Below, piece after piece: positions 5,350 through 22,065 of a DNA stretch of 41,120 bases (position 1 is its first letter; the number at the start of each line of letters is the position of its first letter). Position numbers and translations under genes: made by a program. The notes under the pieces are model-generated. The model saw nothing but the letters and a program-made list of their open reading frames with translations, did no database searches and was not told where the DNA came from. Source of the DNA: Verrucomicrobiota bacterium (lineage in GTDB: Bacteria > Verrucomicrobiota > Verrucomicrobiia > Chthoniobacterales > Terrimicrobiaceae); contig VFJO01000165.1 of assembly GCA_009886045.1 (NCBI GenBank), forward strand, positions 1 through 41,120. The letters run 5' to 3'.

Positions 5350-6512
5350 AAGCCTAATTCTGTAATTATCTTTTTGAGATCAGAGAGATCGTAAACACAT
5401 GAAGAAAGGGGAGACCCAGCTAACTGCTTAGAATCTTTCCCTACTAAAAAGCACATTTTAGAACTCGAAAAATGATAATAGGGCCATCCTCCGCGTATAA
5501 AAGAAGGCTCTAAAAGACTGGCCGAATCAAGCAGGCATATCTGACGACTGTATTCTGAAGAAAAAACAGAAAAATTCGTTGTCCCACTTCCTTCGGCGAT
5601 GAAAATTCCGGGCAGATTAAACAATTGGAGTTTTTGTTGAGAATTTAGTCTGGAAGGGTCGACCGTAAATCCGCCAAAATGTGCAACGAGCCCTTGAATT
5701 TCTTTTGAGTTTCTCACGCGAGCTGCACGATGATCGTTACGAGTTAAATAAATCGGGAATCGATCAACCCTACGGATTGTTTCAGGATTGCCCCAGCGAC
5801 CTCTTACAAACTCCCTTACAGCCAGCGTGCGGCTCAGTGTGCTTGTTATCACAGGCAGCATGAGCGATTTTGGTCTAAAAACGACGAATGCAGATTTGCC
5901 AAGTGCATTCTCTGGGGGTAGATAAAACCGTTTTTCTCCAAAAACCTGCATATACTCATCTTGCCAGCTGGGCGTGCGAGAAAATTGAGGGATCGGTAGA
6001 TTTTTTAAATCTGGAAACCTTTGGGAGAAAAAGGCCAATGGAGCCAAAGCATCTACAAGAAAATGACTGAAATTTGCCGTATCATAGCACCAAACAAAAT
6101 CTTCCTCAGATGAAATGATATCATTTTTGTTGATCGATACATTCAAGCGATATTCATTGCTATGCTTTGCAATAAACGAAAAATACTTAAGCCAATAATC
6201 ATCTTTTTCCAAGAGAACCCCAGATTCTGAAATAACAAAGTGCCGTGTTTCGCCGTGCGGAAAAGTGAATACAAAAACGGTTGGCCTGTTAAGTCGGTAA
6301 AGCGTTCTGTGGTCATCTTGAAGCAAGTCTTGCTCCACTTGAGTCCGAAAAGCTAGTGAAAGTGGGATGTTATCCAACCCAGATAAAGCATTTTGGAACT
6401 CAGGACCACGCAACACTGCTTCACTTGACACAATCTCCACAGAAGAATCCCCCTGAAAGGTGAGAGGATCCTGTGAAACTTGAGAAAAAAAGAGCCCGTT
6501 ATTCGCGTTCAA
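5346..6512 (-). CDS. GT61-like (DUF563) glycosyltransferase
   Basis: A 388-residue soluble protein and the last gene of the minus-strand glycan operon. The middle holds FVWCYDTANFSHFLVDALAP, the counterpart of the NYYHWLLD-type signature of family GT61/DUF563. Towards the C-terminus are IYLTRNDHRAARVRNSKEI and IFIAEGSGTTNFSVFS, matching the family pattern of an Arg-rich loop followed by a G-x-G-x-TN segment. These enzymes transfer a sugar from a nucleotide donor to a glycan; donor and acceptor are unknown here. The N-terminal 100 residues are not recognised. Base composition is clearly more A+T-rich than in the plus-strand operon, as in the two upstream genes. Confidence in the family is fair because the motifs are diverged. 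Confidence 0.7.
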   Translation of the reverse strand: MNANNGLFFSQVSQDPLTFQGDSSVEIVSSEAVLRGPEFQNALSGLDNIPLSLAFRTQVEQDLLQDDHRTLYRLNRPTVFVFTFPHGETRHFVISESGVLLEKDDYWLKYFSFIAKHSNEYRLNVSINKNDIISSEEDFVWCYDTANFSHFLVDALAPLAFFSQRFPDLKNLPIPQFSRTPSWQDEYMQVFGEKRFYLPPENALGKSAFVVFRPKSLMLPVITSTLSRTLAVREFVRGRWGNPETIRRVDRFPIYLTRNDHRAARVRNSKEIQGLVAHFGGFTVDPSRLNSQQKLQLFNLPGIFIAEGSGTTNFSVFSSEYSRQICLLDSASLLEPSFIRGGWPYYHFSSSKMCFLVGKDSKQLAGSPLSSCVYDLSDLKKIITELGF

Positions 6513-11000: not shown

Positions 11001-11914
11001 CGAATTTTGACATCTGGATGGTGAAACTTGAGGAGTTTCTGCTGTCCGCTGCGGCGGATGCGATCCGCTTGAGCGGGATTGTCCAAATAGTATCGCGCTT
11101 TTTCGATCAATTCATCCACGCTGCTCCAAACCTCAATATCCTCACCCGGTTTAAAAAGGAGTTCTAAACCCGAGGACGGCGAAAGCTTGTCCGTAAGCAA
11201 AAATCCACCTGCGGCGAGGGCCTCAAAAACGCGCAGATTTAAATCCCCGTTGAGAGAGACATTAAGCGTTACATTCGAATCTGCATAGATATCCGCCGCC
11301 TCCGCTGGCGTTCCTCGAAGCATCTCCAGCGGGAGACCCGCTTTTTGTAGACTCTCAAGGACCCGACATCGGTAGGGATGGAATTTCCCCGCCTGACCTA
11401 CAAACGAAAATTGGTGTTTAGGATTTGGCGATGGGGTTCTTGGATGAAAAGTAAAATCCAGCGCTGGTATCCAATGCACATTTTTCAGACCGGCCTCGAA
11501 AAACCACCGTGCGTGATGCCGAGTGTGGTCAAAAATGATGCGATCGAATTCCTCCTGCTTCGCATAAGCCAAGAGTTTCTGAATCGGCGTGCCCATATGG
11601 TGCGTATCGCCAACAAGAAGAACCCGAGGGCATTTAAAAGTCTTGAGATTTGACGGGAGATTTCGCGCACTAGCATCGGCTTTGACAAGGACAATCTCGG
11701 GTTGCTGAGTGAGCTTGTTTTTGGAAAAAAATTCCGCGACATCGTAACCGCCTATTGGCGTTTGAATCGCCCTGCTGGAGGAAGCCAGATTGGTTTGAGC
11801 ATCAGGACTGCAGAAGAGCTCCTTTGAAGACAAAAGCTTTTCCCTGTAGAGGGGGCGACTGCCTAAAAAAAAGAGGAAAGCTCTACAGTCATCCATTCGG
11901 GAAATCTTGCTCAT
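8069..11914 (-). CDS. Three-domain glycosyltransferase (CgeB-like, GT4, GT10-like)
   Basis: A 1281-residue cytosolic protein and first gene of the minus operon. Residues about 1-330 form a CgeB-like transferase (FSFVGQAGKFHPYRCRVLES, LNLRVFEALAAGGFLLTD). About 330-565 is a helical, partly TPR-like linker ending in a PPPP stretch near 568. About 570-955 is a GT4 domain: FPPQEMGGYGRKIWEFSNGL, AGLVMPYKGAHVLIDAL, and PEAFGISQVEAMASGL with the donor-binding Glu. About 985-1281 resembles GT10 alpha-1,3-fucosyltransferases, with FENAIYPGYYTEKPIHSRAM near 1185-1204 followed by GCLPLVYSD. Three catalytic modules in one chain suggest processive building of an oligosaccharide or protein-glycan stub. The C-terminal third is A+T-rich like the downstream genes, whereas the first third is not. 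Confidence 0.82.
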   Translation of the reverse strand: MSKISRMDDCRAFLFFLGSRPLYREKLLSSKELFCSPDAQTNLASSSRAIQTPIGGYDVAEFFSKNKLTQQPEIVLVKADASARNLPSNLKTFKCPRVLLVGDTHHMGTPIQKLLAYAKQEEFDRIIFDHTRHHARWFFEAGLKNVHWIPALDFTFHPRTPSPNPKHQFSFVGQAGKFHPYRCRVLESLQKAGLPLEMLRGTPAEAADIYADSNVTLNVSLNGDLNLRVFEALAAGGFLLTDKLSPSSGLELLFKPGEDIEVWSSVDELIEKARYYLDNPAQADRIRRSGQQKLLKFHHPDVKIREFFELVFEGKENPLYSLEEEAVKSRSSVQGVDLEVGVEAYEFFQEMHRTMPLLVVWAAEESLDAAQAFLGDLPRVLVNSAGGAILFLSGAETKPDEMLTSFEGMWVIAPKGLSERLKEWGFVEITNGVYEFAYSALRSLKLLETANAEKIKADLPEILDACTQAFQALLVADRALALEIPEVYQNALKRALFLDRNCLSALFQLADTCLQGGAEEDAAILLHEAHRIQSLPVEVNTLREELEREFAASSHFAQYKEAISGGTPPPPTTTYSILVVTNLFPPQEMGGYGRKIWEFSNGLIKRGHRLKILTGDASYLQKAPDAGEPDLEPLVERSLVLQGEWKNGQTLQLGDLSFISRTSRSNKEKVLAAVTSFKPDFVLLGNFDFLGIDILKALITEKIPVLHSLGNQTPSYHPQESIQSPLYTIAPASDWLGKNLLDQGYKVSNLSTVYPGARVDRFFKQFLPDIRRLRIAFAGLVMPYKGAHVLIDALSILKKSGIEFEADFAGDSTDEVYIRTLKEFVQNNGMAAQVRFNGFLDREGLAALFARCNVLVFPTQVPEAFGISQVEAMASGLIVITSGTGGTQEVIRHGIDGLVFEMGNAVSLAQNLTTLTVNPDLRNKLQINSQKRAMQFSVTESVVRIEKIAGEMLESEPTISRNLKTVTSQSEQETSQVKKMKSKLKYSLVDFGTVVNGDSFYNRLLSSALDVNIDYCADYSSADILVIGPYGNDKIRYAEGQTKAWRVFMTGENNRPDYKFSDCSLTFDRFENEGRNFRLPGWMYELSWFDGLPSTFTPEETEWILNKNRPLQKYLDNYESRQRKVVAVFNTLEHYRVEIFKAFSKLGVAEGVGRPFGNEQNWAGGFYRGKCELISKYLVNLCFENAIYPGYYTEKPIHSRAMGCLPLVYSDSYLSLDFNSDALVNLYNFSSQSEFVEYVRFLLLRPELIRQKIDSDIFTRKPSLDGAKEFLLKKYNEFNSK

Positions 11915-17855: not shown

Positions 17856-19889
17856 GTGTCTCGTTCTTACACACTGCAACCCGAACCCGCCTCTGTCAGC
17901 GGCATTAATTATGCGGCTGAATTAAACGACCAGCAACTGGCTGCGGTGACATATCCCGGCGGGCCTGCCTTGGTCATTGCGGGAGCAGGCAGCGGGAAAA
18001 CCCGCACTCTCACGTACCGCGTGGCATGGATTCTCGAGCAAGGCATTCCCGCCCGATCCATTCTCCTCCTCACATTCACAAACAAGGCAGCCCGCGAAAT
18101 GACCGAGCGTGTGCACAATCTGATCCCCGGGGCGGCCGATGGACTCTGGGGAGGCACGTTCCATTCGATCGGAAACCGCATCCTGCGTCGCCATGCTGAG
18201 GCGGTTGGTTTTCGCCAAGGTTTCTCGATTATGGACCGCGAGGATTCCGAGGACATGATCTCCTCCGTAGTCGATCGCGAGGGCATTGTTTCAACCGACA
18301 AGCGATTCCCCAAGGCCGGTGTGCTCTCAGATATCTTTAGCTTTTCGATCAATACAGGCACGCCGATCTCCAAGGTACTGACAGAAAAATACCGCTACTT
18401 CATTCCTCTGGCACAGGACATCGAACGCGTCCAGACGGCTTATGAGTCACGAAAAAAAGAGGCGAACTCGATGGATTTCGACGACCTCTTGGCCAAGACG
18501 CTCGAGTTATTGCTGACCTGTCCTGACGTGACCGCTCAATACCAGCGCCAATTCCAGCACATCCTAGTTGATGAGTATCAGGACACCAACCGGCTGCAAT
18601 CCGAGCTCATCGACCTCCTCGCCGCCACCCATCGGAACGTGATGGTCGTGGGCGATGATGCCCAGAGCATCTACTCTTGGCGCGGAGCGAATTTTGAAAA
18701 CATCCTCCGATTTCCCGAGATGCATCCGGGCGCTCAGGTTTTCAAGATTGAAACAAACTACCGCAGCGTGCCTGGCGTGCTCGACATCGCCAACGCCGCC
18801 ATTCTGACGAACGAAAAGCAATTTCCAAAAAACCTCGAGCCGGTCCGCAAGCCTCATTCCATCAAGCCGGCGCTTGTGGCACTCCAAACCAACACCCAGC
18901 AAGCAGCCTTCGTTGCGCAGCGCATCATGGAACTCTCCGCCGAGGGCGTGCCACTCGAGCATATCGCTGTTCTTTACCGAGCCCACTACCACTCGATGGA
19001 GATGCAACTCGAGTTCACCCGACGCGGCATTCCCTTCAGCATCACGAGTGGGCTCCGTTTTTTTGAGCAGGCGCACGTGAAGGATGTCGCCGCATTTCTG
19101 AAATTCACGATCAACCCGCGCGATGAAACGGCCTTCAAACGCATGATCCGCATGCTGCCAGGCATTGGCAATAAAACCGCCGAGACGCTCTGGCAAAAGT
19201 CCTCCGCGATTCTCGCAGGAAAAACCCAGTTCGCGGATCTCGCCCCACTCAAGGTTCCTGCCAAAGCCCAAAAGTCGTGGGATCAATTTGTGCACACACT
19301 CAGCGACCTAGCTCCTGCTACGGGACCAATGAAACCCGCCGACATGATTTCCTGCGTCCTCTTCGCCATTTACGAGGACTACATGAAGGAGAAGTTTCCG
19401 AATTACGATGCCCGCCACGAGGATCTCATAACCCTACAGGAATTCGCAGGACAATTTGAAAGCACGTCCGACTTCCTTTCCCAGCTTGCCTTGCTGGGTG
19501 GATTGGAGACGGCTGATGCCTTCGCCAATGCTGCCGAGACGGACAAAGTCACCCTCTCCACACTCCATCAGGCCAAGGGCCTGGAGTGGCGCGTTGTCTT
19601 CCTCATCTGGCTTGCCGATGGGATGTTTCCCAGCACCCGGAGCATCGAAGACCCACGCGGCTTGGAGGAGGAGCGCCGCCTCTTCTATGTCGGCATTACC
19701 CGATGCATGGATGAACTCTACCTCACCTACCCAGAAGCCCGCATCGGCACTGGCTATGGAGAGACATTCTTCTCGGCGTCTCGATTCCTTCGCGAAGTCC
19801 CAGAGTCCCTTTTTGAGGCATGGGATGTCAATCTTCCGACGCGCGGCTTGAGCACTCCGACTCCTCAAGATAATGACGACCCGTTCTGA
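17856..19889 (+). CDS. UvrD/PcrA/Rep superfamily 1 DNA helicase
   Basis: 677 residues with a GTG start (SRSYTLQ), although the helicase core begins only at LNDQQLAAVTYP near residue 24. Motif I is IAGAGSGKTRTL (GAGSGKT at 43-49), motif II is the VDEYQDTN block near 237, motif III is VVGDDAQSIYSWRGA, motif V is TLSTLHQAKGLEW, and motif VI is EEERRLFYVGITR near 603. This is a 3'-5' DNA translocase used in repair and replication restart; whether it is the UvrD, PcrA or Rep equivalent cannot be decided here. It has a normal length apart from a short C-terminus without the extended PcrA tail. Confidence 0.94.
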   Translation: MSRSYTLQPEPASVSGINYAAELNDQQLAAVTYPGGPALVIAGAGSGKTRTLTYRVAWILEQGIPARSILLLTFTNKAAREMTERVHNLIPGAADGLWGGTFHSIGNRILRRHAEAVGFRQGFSIMDREDSEDMISSVVDREGIVSTDKRFPKAGVLSDIFSFSINTGTPISKVLTEKYRYFIPLAQDIERVQTAYESRKKEANSMDFDDLLAKTLELLLTCPDVTAQYQRQFQHILVDEYQDTNRLQSELIDLLAATHRNVMVVGDDAQSIYSWRGANFENILRFPEMHPGAQVFKIETNYRSVPGVLDIANAAILTNEKQFPKNLEPVRKPHSIKPALVALQTNTQQAAFVAQRIMELSAEGVPLEHIAVLYRAHYHSMEMQLEFTRRGIPFSITSGLRFFEQAHVKDVAAFLKFTINPRDETAFKRMIRMLPGIGNKTAETLWQKSSAILAGKTQFADLAPLKVPAKAQKSWDQFVHTLSDLAPATGPMKPADMISCVLFAIYEDYMKEKFPNYDARHEDLITLQEFAGQFESTSDFLSQLALLGGLETADAFANAAETDKVTLSTLHQAKGLEWRVVFLIWLADGMFPSTRSIEDPRGLEEERRLFYVGITRCMDELYLTYPEARIGTGYGETFFSASRFLREVPESLFEAWDVNLPTRGLSTPTPQDNDDPF

Positions 19890-19905
19890 GGGATTCAGGC
19901 ATGCA

Positions 19906-19928
19906 AGACAAAGCCTCCGCTTTTGTTG
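19906..19928 (+). terminator. Weak candidate terminator after the helicase gene
   Basis: AAAGC, a 4-base loop CTCC, then GCTTTT lead into a T-rich TTTTGTTGTT. The stem is only 5 bp, so this is a low-confidence call. Confidence 0.3.
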
Positions 19929-20008
19929 TTGACGGGACACCCGACGAATGCCAATTTTTCTGGGCACTCCGAGCTTATCGGATCGTTCTTTTTTACATTT
20001 CAACCAAT

Positions 20009-20117
20009 CCGCCGGCCTAGGAAAGCAAGGGTGAAAGTCCCTCACTGTCGCGCAAAGGTCAAAGTCCGGGTTCGAACCGGCGGAGAAAACCGCACAGCAC
20101 CTGAAATCGGTGCGCGG
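20009..20117 (+). promoter_or_regulatory. Cobalamin (B12) riboswitch, short variant
   Basis: The segment at 20031-20053 (GTGAAAGTCC, then CTGTCGCGCAA) matches the cobalamin-riboswitch core GUGnAAnUCC...CUGnCnCGCnA, preceded by GGAAA at 20020-20024 and followed by AGTCCG at 20063-20068. CCGCCGG at 20009-20015 pairs perfectly with CCGGCGG at 20077-20083 and closes the core. The core is only about 75 nt because the usual P7-P11 arm is missing, as in the class II/AdoCbl-variant types. A second stem, CCGC-CACC/GGTG-GCGG (20090-20117, loop TGAAATC), follows and may supply the kissing-loop partner. A terminator stem then precedes the start of the PEP-CTERM gene. The usual logic is that B12 binding switches expression off. 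Confidence 0.82.
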
Positions 20118-20159
20118 GCAGCGCATGACTGCACGTGACGGGGGTAGTCCTTTCAAAAA

Positions 20160-20199
20160 ACGGGGGAAGGGATTGTCCTTTGACATCCCCGTGTTTTTT
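20160..20199 (+). terminator. Riboswitch expression-platform terminator
   Basis: ACGGGG pairs with CCCCGT (20187-20192) across a loop of about 20 bases, followed by GTTTTTT. It ends 15 bases before the PEP-CTERM start codon, so it would act as a ligand-controlled attenuator rather than end an upstream gene. Confidence 0.72.
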
Positions 20200-20213
20200 A
20201 GAAGGACAATAAA

Positions 20214-20915
20214 ATGAAGAAAATCAAATTGGCAGCATTGCTGCTCGTAGTTGGCGCCCTCGGGGCGAAGGCGCAGTTGGTGCAGAGTTTTAGTGACATA
20301 CAGTTCTGGACGGGGAGCGGGGAAAATCGATCGGCGCTGGTGCTGCAATGGAATGATGGTGGCACGCCTGCCTCGCTGGCGTGGGGGTATCGGTGGAGTG
20401 GGAATGCGACGGGTATCGGCATGCTGAAAGCGATTGCGGGCCAGACGACCGTGGTGCCAGATGGCGACCCCAGCGCGGTTTTAGAGACTTCCAGCGGTGC
20501 GGATAGTCGCATGACGCTTTCGATTGTGCGGTATGGTTTCGGAGATGCAATTTATGCGATGAGCTTTCAGGATGGTATCACCACTCGCAGCCAAGCGGAT
20601 TGGTCGTCCGGGTATTGGACATATAGCATTTTCGGAGGGAATTTCGATTATACCAATTGGGCAGATCCAACGGTCCTCACCTACAATACTTCAGGGTCGG
20701 CGACCTATTCTTCTGTCAGTTGGTTTAGTTCGCCGATTGGCGCTTCGGATCGTAAATTGGTGGATGGGTCGTGGGACGCATTTCACTTTGCTCCGGGTTC
20801 TGCTACAAGCGCGATCCTGCAGCCGGACGCGGTTTCGGTTCCCGAGCCATCGGTGGTGGTTCTTGTGGCAATAGCGCTGGGCTTGCTCGTGTTGAAACGG
20901 CGAGGCAATGCGTAG
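20214..20915 (+). CDS. PEP-CTERM sorting-domain protein under the B12 leader
   Basis: 233 residues. A signal peptide (1-20, ending GAKA) opens the protein. The C-terminus (about 209-233) is a PEP-CTERM tail: VPEPS, a hydrophobic helix, and KRR. Such proteins are exported and processed by an exosortase; no exosortase gene is in this window. The mature part is Trp/Ser/Gly-rich with a distinctive block, DIQFWTGSG (28-36), ALVLQW (41-46) and SLAWGYRW (54-61). No enzymatic motif is seen and I cannot name the domain. The ribosome-binding site GAAGGA lies 9 bases before the ATG at 20214, right after the attenuator. The link to a cobalamin riboswitch suggests expression under B12 shortage and perhaps a role in capturing corrinoids at the surface (inference). 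Confidence 0.87.
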   Translation: MKKIKLAALLLVVGALGAKAQLVQSFSDIQFWTGSGENRSALVLQWNDGGTPASLAWGYRWSGNATGIGMLKAIAGQTTVVPDGDPSAVLETSSGADSRMTLSIVRYGFGDAIYAMSFQDGITTRSQADWSSGYWTYSIFGGNFDYTNWADPTVLTYNTSGSATYSSVSWFSSPIGASDRKLVDGSWDAFHFAPGSATSAILQPDAVSVPEPSVVVLVAIALGLLVLKRRGNA

Positions 20916-21276
20916 GAGGTTGCACGGCTATTTTTTTGATCTGGTCTGCGGGGCCGACCTGGAAAACCGGAGTAACAACATTTTCTCAAAGAGTTGGGGT
21001 TTTGATGAAGGGTTCTGTGCGTTTTTTCTCGGGGTGTGCACCCGCCCGGGGTGCAGTCGGGTGCGCCCCGACCCGGACATGGATTGCTGCCACCGGCCTT
21101 CGAACGCCTTTGTTACAGCTGCACCACGAGGGCTCGTGGCGATGCGCTCGGAGTCGGGCTTGCTCCCCGAGACCTTTCAATCATCGCATGCAGCGAGAGA
21201 GGGTGAGGTTGGCGCGGTTGTCAAAAAGAGATCCGGCGTTGCAAAGGTATCCGTTGCTTGCACGGCCGGGACGGGC
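20916..21276 (+). other. 361-bp G+C-rich spacer with hairpins between PEP-CTERM and pseudopilin genes
   Basis: An open frame runs through the segment from an ATG at 20908 into the pseudopilin. Its Cys/Arg/Pro-rich composition and lack of any signal or pilin feature argue that it is not coding. Strong potential stems are GGGTGTGCACCC (21032-21043) and GTCGGG-TGCGC-CCCGAC (21056-21072). A long untranslated or structured region is the better reading. Confidence 0.5.
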
Positions 21277-22065
21277 ATGCCCCCTTCTTGGGGGCGTGGT
21301 GGTGCCTTGCAGAAACGGGGTGCTGCTTTCTCGCTGGTGGAGCTCATGGTGTCGATGGCGATAGTGACCATTTTGGGAGCGATTGTTTTTGTGGCAGCGA
21401 AGCAAGCTTACGCGAGTTCGTCGCTGGCAGTGTCAGCAAACAATATTCGCCAACTGGCAGCGGGCGGCATGGCCTATCTCGGTGACAACAACTATACCTT
21501 CTGGCCCTGGCGGAAGAGCGATGCTGCAGATGGTGCCGGGACGACATGGTGGTGGGGTTTTGAAACATCAACTAGCGTGAGCAGTCCCGAAGGCCAGAGG
21601 GATTTTGATCCGACAAAGGGCCCGCTGGCAAACTATGTACCGAAGGGATTCCGGCCTGATCCGAGCTTTGCGCTGGGTGGGAATGCATTCAAACCGAAAT
21701 ACCGGAATGGGTATATCGGACTAGGCTATAACACGCTTCTCGGTGGAGGCTTCATGGGCACTGGAGCACTTATGAGGCAAACGGCGCTCTCCGACCCCTC
21801 ACAGGTGGTGGTGTTCTTCACCTCGGCGCAGGTTAATACTTTTCAGAGACCGGCCTCAGCTCGCAATCCCATGATTGAGGAGTTTTACGGCATCAACGAG
21901 CGCGAGGTCACTGCGCACTTTCGGCATCGCGGGATGGCCATGGTTTCCTTCGCTTCGGGAAATGCAGGGTTCTTGCCGATGGATGAGTCGACCCGTGACA
22001 GGCGAAGCCCAAAAGCAAATATCGGCCGCTTTGCCCCGCACGGGAGTAAAAAGTTTTTGGATTGA
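21277..22065 (+). CDS. Pseudopilin-like protein with type IV N-terminal methylation motif
   Basis: 262 residues if started at the ATG 21277. A positively charged leader (MPPSWGRGGALQKRGAA) precedes FSLVELMVSMAIV, the prepilin-peptidase motif with Glu at +5; the usual Gly at -1 is Ala. A single hydrophobic helix is followed by NIRQLAAGGMAYLGDNN, typical of the large verrucomicrobial/planctomycetal pseudopilin families. The C-terminal HFRHRGMAMVSFASGNAGFL resembles their H-X9-DG tail, with Ser replacing Asp. Such proteins form type II secretion-like pseudopili or surface fibres; the rest of the machinery is not in the window. It is the second gene after the B12 leader and may share its transcript, although a 361-bp spacer intervenes. 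A weak stem (TCCCG/CGGGA, 22066-22089) follows the stop. Confidence 0.85.
   Translation: MPPSWGRGGALQKRGAAFSLVELMVSMAIVTILGAIVFVAAKQAYASSSLAVSANNIRQLAAGGMAYLGDNNYTFWPWRKSDAADGAGTTWWWGFETSTSVSSPEGQRDFDPTKGPLANYVPKGFRPDPSFALGGNAFKPKYRNGYIGLGYNTLLGGGFMGTGALMRQTALSDPSQVVVFFTSAQVNTFQRPASARNPMIEEFYGINEREVTAHFRHRGMAMVSFASGNAGFLPMDESTRDRRSPKANIGRFAPHGSKKFLD

Follow-up and report, generated by a model that had tools for sequence, protein, structure and literature searches.

The locus described here very probably represents a B12-repressed corrinoid-capture module with predicted ligand binding, in which a cobalamin-type leader RNA stands before the genes of an exosortase-anchored surface protein and a pseudopilin. 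The window, that is, the whole stretch of 41,120 nucleotides analysed, belongs to the genome of a flagellated member of the Verrucomicrobiota (3.5 Mb, 340 contigs, 98.6% complete, flagellin and FliW genes present), whose nearest named relative, judged by the PEP-CTERM gene, is Spartobacteria bacterium AMD-G4 (91% identical). The known targets of cobalamin riboswitches are genes of B12 synthesis, TonB/ABC uptake, and isoenzymes, and the literature search found no work that connects either PEP-CTERM proteins or this pseudopilin family with these riboswitches, although other reports may exist. The original prediction saw here a different kind of target; the surface protein and the pseudopilin do stand as targets, most plausibly as an unfamiliar type of B12-uptake gene. 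The features of the locus are as follows.

20009..20083 (+): AdoCbl-II-like aptamer core, with parts P3, P4, P5, and P6 with L5 (RF01689 match and P3/P4 covariation)
20009-20015/20077-20083 (+): helix P3
20028-20031/20039-20042 (+): helix P4
20092..20138 (+): P12/P13-like domain, with its closing stem at 20092-20095/20135-20138 and P13 at 20117-20121/20129-20133
20147..20207 (+): expression-platform hairpin, in which the Shine-Dalgarno sequence is paired with the invariant GUCCUUU
20200..20206 (+): Shine-Dalgarno AGAAGGA, 7 nt before the ATG, with the hairpin pairing extending to 20207 (from the sequence)
20214..20915 (+): PEP-CTERM surface protein of 233 aa, of a predicted transcobalamin beta-domain-like family (translation, AlphaFold2, and VIA-align)
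20316..20798 (+): predicted transcobalamin-like domain, residues 35-195 (model range of the VIA-align matches)
20835..20903 (+): PEP-CTERM sorting signal, residues 208-230 (TIGR02595 and PF07589 matches)
20908..22065 (+): pseudopilin frame, with the likely product from the ATG at 21277 and the N-methylation motif at ~21322-21390 (PF07963 and translation)
21439..22062 (+): pseudopilin ectodomain of family A5, usually single-copy and linked to cobalamin riboswitches

The covariance-model search (cmscan of 19880-20330) was positive, though sub-threshold, with the RF01689 (AdoCbl-II) model matching the core at 29.8 bits (E 4.8e-5), below the gathering score of 36.5 bits, and the RNA is thus named AdoCbl-II-like. 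At gathering, Rfam gives no match in the entire window. Given that RF00174 reaches only 9.9 bits and was rejected as the class of this RNA, AdoCbl-II is the better assignment. Genome-wide, RF01689 scores best at this very site (E 9.1e-5), the sole one near significance, and four homologous leaders (L006, L086, L088, and L089) exceed the gathering score, with 37.3-40.6 bits. Together with the helices that covary in 17 relatives, this match bears out the claim of a cobalamin-riboswitch-like RNA, and the reading of the leader as a cobalamin-type aptamer, with ligand binding predicted from the sequence, holds. The core helices, the conserved junction letters, and the L5/L13 complementarity are shared with the RF01689 and RF00174 riboswitches, whereas the score of the window copy below gathering and target genes outside those usually listed set it apart.

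The 17 aligned leaders come from 14 of the 26 genomes of the family and from another family of the order, the three leaders of the latter exceeding the Rfam cut-off. Across a structure of 29 pairs, 95.3% of the cells are paired, and two-sided changes occur at nine pairs, against a shuffled mean of 4.2 (none of 500 shuffles get there), with a covariation score of 0.204 compared with 0.113 in the shuffles. In slid registers, the pairing falls to 27-45% in every case. Helices P3 and P4 of the core covary, and P13 has three pairs with two-sided changes and 97.6% of its cells paired. The GCG of L5 (20050-20052) and the CGC of L13 (20122-20124) are invariant in all 17 leaders and may form a kissing contact, an invariance that leaves no covariation signal.

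The hairpin downstream folds at -28 kcal/mol (z -3.1). The GTCCTTT at 20147-20153 is invariant in the 17 leaders, and the AGAAGGAC-GUCCUUU pairing in the 3' hairpin is found in all six of the leaders that were folded. The stem that had been described as an attenuator is real, but its conserved part is the pairing of the Shine-Dalgarno sequence with GUCCUUU, and not the U-run, which lacks conservation among the relatives. The leader most likely acts by the sequestration of the Shine-Dalgarno sequence, at the level of translation, rather than as an attenuator, and translation would probably be turned off by B12. When B12 is plentiful, the leader would bind it, the L5/L13 contact and the P13 domain would be stabilized, and the 20147-20207 hairpin would hold the ribosome site closed; when it is scarce, the site would open and both proteins would be made. 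The first of these would be a secreted, exosortase-anchored protein with a transcobalamin beta-domain-like ectodomain that binds corrinoid, and the second a dedicated pseudopilin, whose conserved ectodomain would cooperate with the binder at the surface, replacing the BtuB/BtuG-type machinery.

In sequence comparison, the B12 link also stands apart from the single RNA of the window, given the RF00174, btuB, and DUF4465 contexts found in related genomes. Both genes lie behind an RF00174 riboswitch of 47-51 bits, directly after metH, in three genomes of a sister genus (G008, G009, and G010), and in four genomes of the window's own genus (G016, G018, G019, and G020) the window-type RNA is followed by btuB, with the receptor of G016 having E. 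coli BtuB as its best solved match (E 9.8e-25). The genomes G014 and G016 share the flanking genes downstream, with the gene pair in the former and btuB in the latter as alternatives, one each. In another genome (G005), the same RNA and the pseudopilin are retained, while the PEP-CTERM slot is taken by a DUF4465 protein (E 3.7e-50), with 9HMU as its best solved match (E 1.3e-35). Proteins of DUF4465, including ones from Coraliomargarita and Haloferula, have been shown experimentally to bind B12 (PMC13398666). The window's genome itself has MetH.

The possibility that another ligand is sensed, by a leader related to the cobalamin aptamers, draws on the sub-threshold score and on the shortened P5 loop of the window copy; the same RNA precedes btuB, however, the same genes stand behind full RF00174 riboswitches elsewhere, and close relatives exceed gathering. 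This alternative is very improbable, and was rejected on the genomic context.

The product of the 20214 gene has a signal-like N-terminus and the C-terminus of an exosortase substrate (PEP, a hydrophobic stretch, and a basic end), which matches TIGR02595 at 20.4 bits (cut-off 16), in agreement with its prediction as a PEP-CTERM protein, and Pfam PF07589 at 17.3, below the cut-off of 20.7. The predicted Trp-rich block exists as well, with W32 and W61 invariant in the binder family and W46 and W57 conserved to 90% or more; few residues of the N-terminal strands are conserved as strongly as these four. The identity of DUF4465 was rejected for this protein, given that PF14717 matches neither it nor its family; no PF14717 match over the cut-off was found in the window's genome.

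The ectodomain of the binder is predicted, by modelling, to adopt the C-terminal beta-grasp fold of transcobalamin. With 41 sequences, AlphaFold2 gave a model with a pLDDT of 90.3 and a pTM of 0.84, for which the best VIA-align matches, among the 1000 best Foldseek candidates, were intrinsic factor, transcobalamin, and 3u7z, which we take to be a DUF4430 protein (Z 10.2-11.5, rmsd 1.8-2.5 A over 95-107 beta-domain residues). Within the same candidates, the next chain after this transcobalamin-type set reached a Z of 3.9. The matches of an earlier model, built with 11 sequences, were the same, with haptocorrin in addition. The Foldseek E-values are weak and non-significant (best 0.9 for the 41-sequence model and 0.1 for the first), so the fold claim depends on the structural realignment, and the wider case on this and the genomic context. 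Where transcobalamin-like SLBB/DUF4430 domains carry a beta-hairpin insert, behind the helix, the model has a helix at 67-74 and then strands at 75-82, 97-107, and 110-119. No sequence match to the DUF4430 Pfam family or to solved chains was obtained for the binder family, whether for the 41 members (E 0.1) or for the profiles A2 and A4 (E 10). The structures of BtuJ, BtuG, and BtuH are absent from the fold matches, an absence that does not exclude them.

B12 and related ligands have been proposed for the transcobalamin-like clade of the SLBB superfamily (PMC1796856), with whose SLBB/DUF4430 proteins the window binder shares its predicted fold. It differs from them in the lack of a sequence-level Pfam match, in its PEP-CTERM architecture, and in its distribution across the Verrucomicrobiota, Bacteroidota, Planctomycetota, and Armatimonadota. 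The earlier idea of a corrinoid-capturing surface protein is supported, at the level of the model, by the transcobalamin beta-domain fold and by the exchange with DUF4465, and the PEP-CTERM protein may well bind corrinoids.

A search profile built from 11 relatives recovered the binder family in 43 of the 385 genomes of the class, in 24 genera. A cobalamin riboswitch (Rfam at gathering) lies directly upstream, on the same strand, in 26 of 33 binder neighbourhoods; two of the seven others have little or no upstream sequence. No riboswitch was found in the upstream stretches of six binder homologues, even at E 0.5. Across 32 genomes, 27 RF00174 sites exceed the cut-off, and 25 of them precede the binder family, mostly as the sole site in the genome. 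This recurrence of B12 elements contradicts the contingency, raised with the original prediction, that the homologues never occur with them. In a collection of 85,000 species, the family was also found in the Planctomycetota, Armatimonadota, Bacteroidota, and others, with RF00174 in 15 of the 20 loci sampled. The binder domain is fused to a DUF5074 propeller in Chryseobacterium and Flavobacterium, where the fusion is preceded by a second DUF5074 (BtuG-type) gene and by a TonB-receptor-like frame cut at the locus edge. Two loci (L135:2875-5151 and L137:2863-5136) encode a transcobalamin-like domain fused to a DUF5074 propeller and a type IX secretion tail, and in both loci a PKD_3 (BtuH-like) gene and a further, unfused DUF5074 gene are present as well.

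These observations also bear on the reading of B12 as a mere cue for an adhesion or biofilm programme, whose proteins would make no contact with corrinoids. PEP-CTERM proteins are often tied to matrix formation, and several PEP-CTERM genes of a methylotroph adjoin c-di-GMP riboswitches (PMC12530212), but the fold match to B12 carriers, the swap with the B12-binding DUF4465, and the fusion to and neighbourhood with BtuG-type propellers make this reading improbable.

The capture proteins BtuG, BtuH, BtuJ (DUF4465), and BtuK of Bacteroides are likewise surface-anchored accessory proteins under cobalamin riboswitches (PMC12751083, PMC8941943, PMC13398666). The relatives of the window binder in the DUF5074 (BtuG-type) operons of the Flavobacteriaceae, and the ability of a DUF4465 protein, as in BtuJ, to fill the binder's slot, extend this likeness. 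In contrast with those systems, the window cassette has a binder with a predicted transcobalamin-like fold and a PEP-CTERM rather than a lipoprotein anchor, includes a dedicated pseudopilin, and lacks BtuB at its locus.

The second gene carries the N-methylation motif (PF07963, 26.7 bits against 21.2), as expected of the pseudopilin-like gene first proposed. The start proposed at 21277 is a plausible internal ATG, but the frame is open already from 20908, overlapping the stop of the first gene. Some 138 residues thus lie ahead of the pilin motif (20908-21321), from an ATG that overlaps this stop; similar long extensions are seen in G011, G017, and G025, whereas G014 begins right at the motif, which may reflect the growth of an in-frame insert between the two genes. 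No further copies of the insert were found within the window.

The A5 family is present in 99 of the 385 genomes of the class, and only one of these has more than a single copy. Of the 73 pseudopilins in 72 further genomes, almost none of which has a detected binder (G161, whose upstream region is truncated, is the exception), 56 have an RF00174 site upstream, at a distance of 1.1-4.6 kb (median 2.0 kb) and on their own strand, a count made under stricter filters, which may miss weak riboswitches. Conversely, these genomes have 64 riboswitches, of which 56 stand ahead of pseudopilins, and the probability of a random site being so placed is ~7e-4 per genome. The interval holds one or two assorted secreted proteins, many ending in PEP-CTERM without any other Pfam domain, so the pseudopilin is the most constant partner. 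It is retained where the binder changes, and its mean column identity is 63% in A5, against 45% in the binder family (A1), for row sets that differ. A pseudopilin without a detectable riboswitch beside it, possibly with a diverged aptamer, occurs in L105 and L109 (genus g12), which also keep the binder, and in G104, G159, G208, and G277.

The TonB-dependent receptor BtuB holds the same riboswitch-controlled position in the sister genomes, and is absent from the pseudopilin loci examined. Fifty loci were picked, by the binder or the RNA; the pseudopilin is present in 31 of them and BtuB in nine, with none holding both and ten holding neither, a count made per locus that includes related, and hence non-independent, genomes. 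As most of the genomes were assembled from metagenomes, neighbours may be missing at the contig ends. A BtuB of the G016 type, the type of the genus, was searched for across 26 genomes and was not found in that of the window (98.6% complete), where the one TonB-plug gene is closest to a colicin I receptor and is not behind the riboswitch.

Competence pseudopili take up DNA, and the pseudopilin may by analogy be an uptake device, in which a retracting pseudopilus would take over from BtuB the passage of corrinoids through the outer membrane, baited by the surface protein in its corrinoid-loaded state or by the pseudopilin's own ectodomain. The mutual exclusion at the 50 loci, the swap of the gene pair and btuB at one syntenic locus, the lone TonB-plug gene of the window's genome, and a pseudopilin better conserved than the binder and constant when the latter changes all favour this device. 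The exclusion of BtuB was examined per locus, however, and genome-wide solely for the G016 type in 26 genomes, and other divergent TonB receptors could serve; the device is a rather unlikely option. Its broader form, in which a B12-repressed pseudopilin and exchangeable PEP-CTERM binders would replace BtuB in a large part of the Verrucomicrobiia through import by the pseudopilus, is similarly doubtful.

Capture alone, which is given a chance only a little short of even, would have the binder concentrate corrinoids at the surface or matrix, with the pseudopilin as a display partner and import left to an unrecognized outer-membrane receptor. In other families, three loci (L101, L108, and L111) have BtuB and another surface protein behind this binder, whose presence thus fits with ordinary import; the lipoproteins BtuH and BtuJ of Bacteroides capture B12 for BtuB/BtuG (PMC12751083, PMC8941943). 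This account, on the other hand, leaves the constancy of the pseudopilin and the exclusion of BtuB unexplained. For the corrinoid-capture module as a whole, the pseudopilin would probably work with the binder at the surface.

The class Verrucomicrobiia appears to place its main, and often only, cobalamin riboswitch before exchangeable surface binders and a constant pseudopilin. This provides a likely function for an unnamed protein family resembling the B12 carriers of animals, an initial hint at what one of the numerous orphan pseudopilins of the Verrucomicrobiota may do, and a possible route by which B12-using (MetH-bearing) bacteria may obtain the vitamin without BtuB.

A number of other arrangements were observed around the binder family. 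In Desulfosarcina cetonica (L184:4398-4814), tandem c-di-GMP-I and cobalamin riboswitches precede a PEP-CTERM-like gene and a second binder-like gene. A surface protein starting with GPYxPAAGQ, without a Pfam match, adjoins the binder and BtuB in L101:3952-4869, L098:7475-8482, L108, L111, and L112. Binder fusions of 700-775 aa to an unnamed region of 500 aa occur in L091:5861-8185, L102:7126-9297, L106:5240-7507, and L097:7848-9944, and this region stands alone in L092, L093, and L095. The L102 locus also contains three Acido-Lenti-1 RNAs (RF01687), at 1041-1086, 6204-6249, and 11815-11860, within 11 kb of a single contig around the riboswitch.
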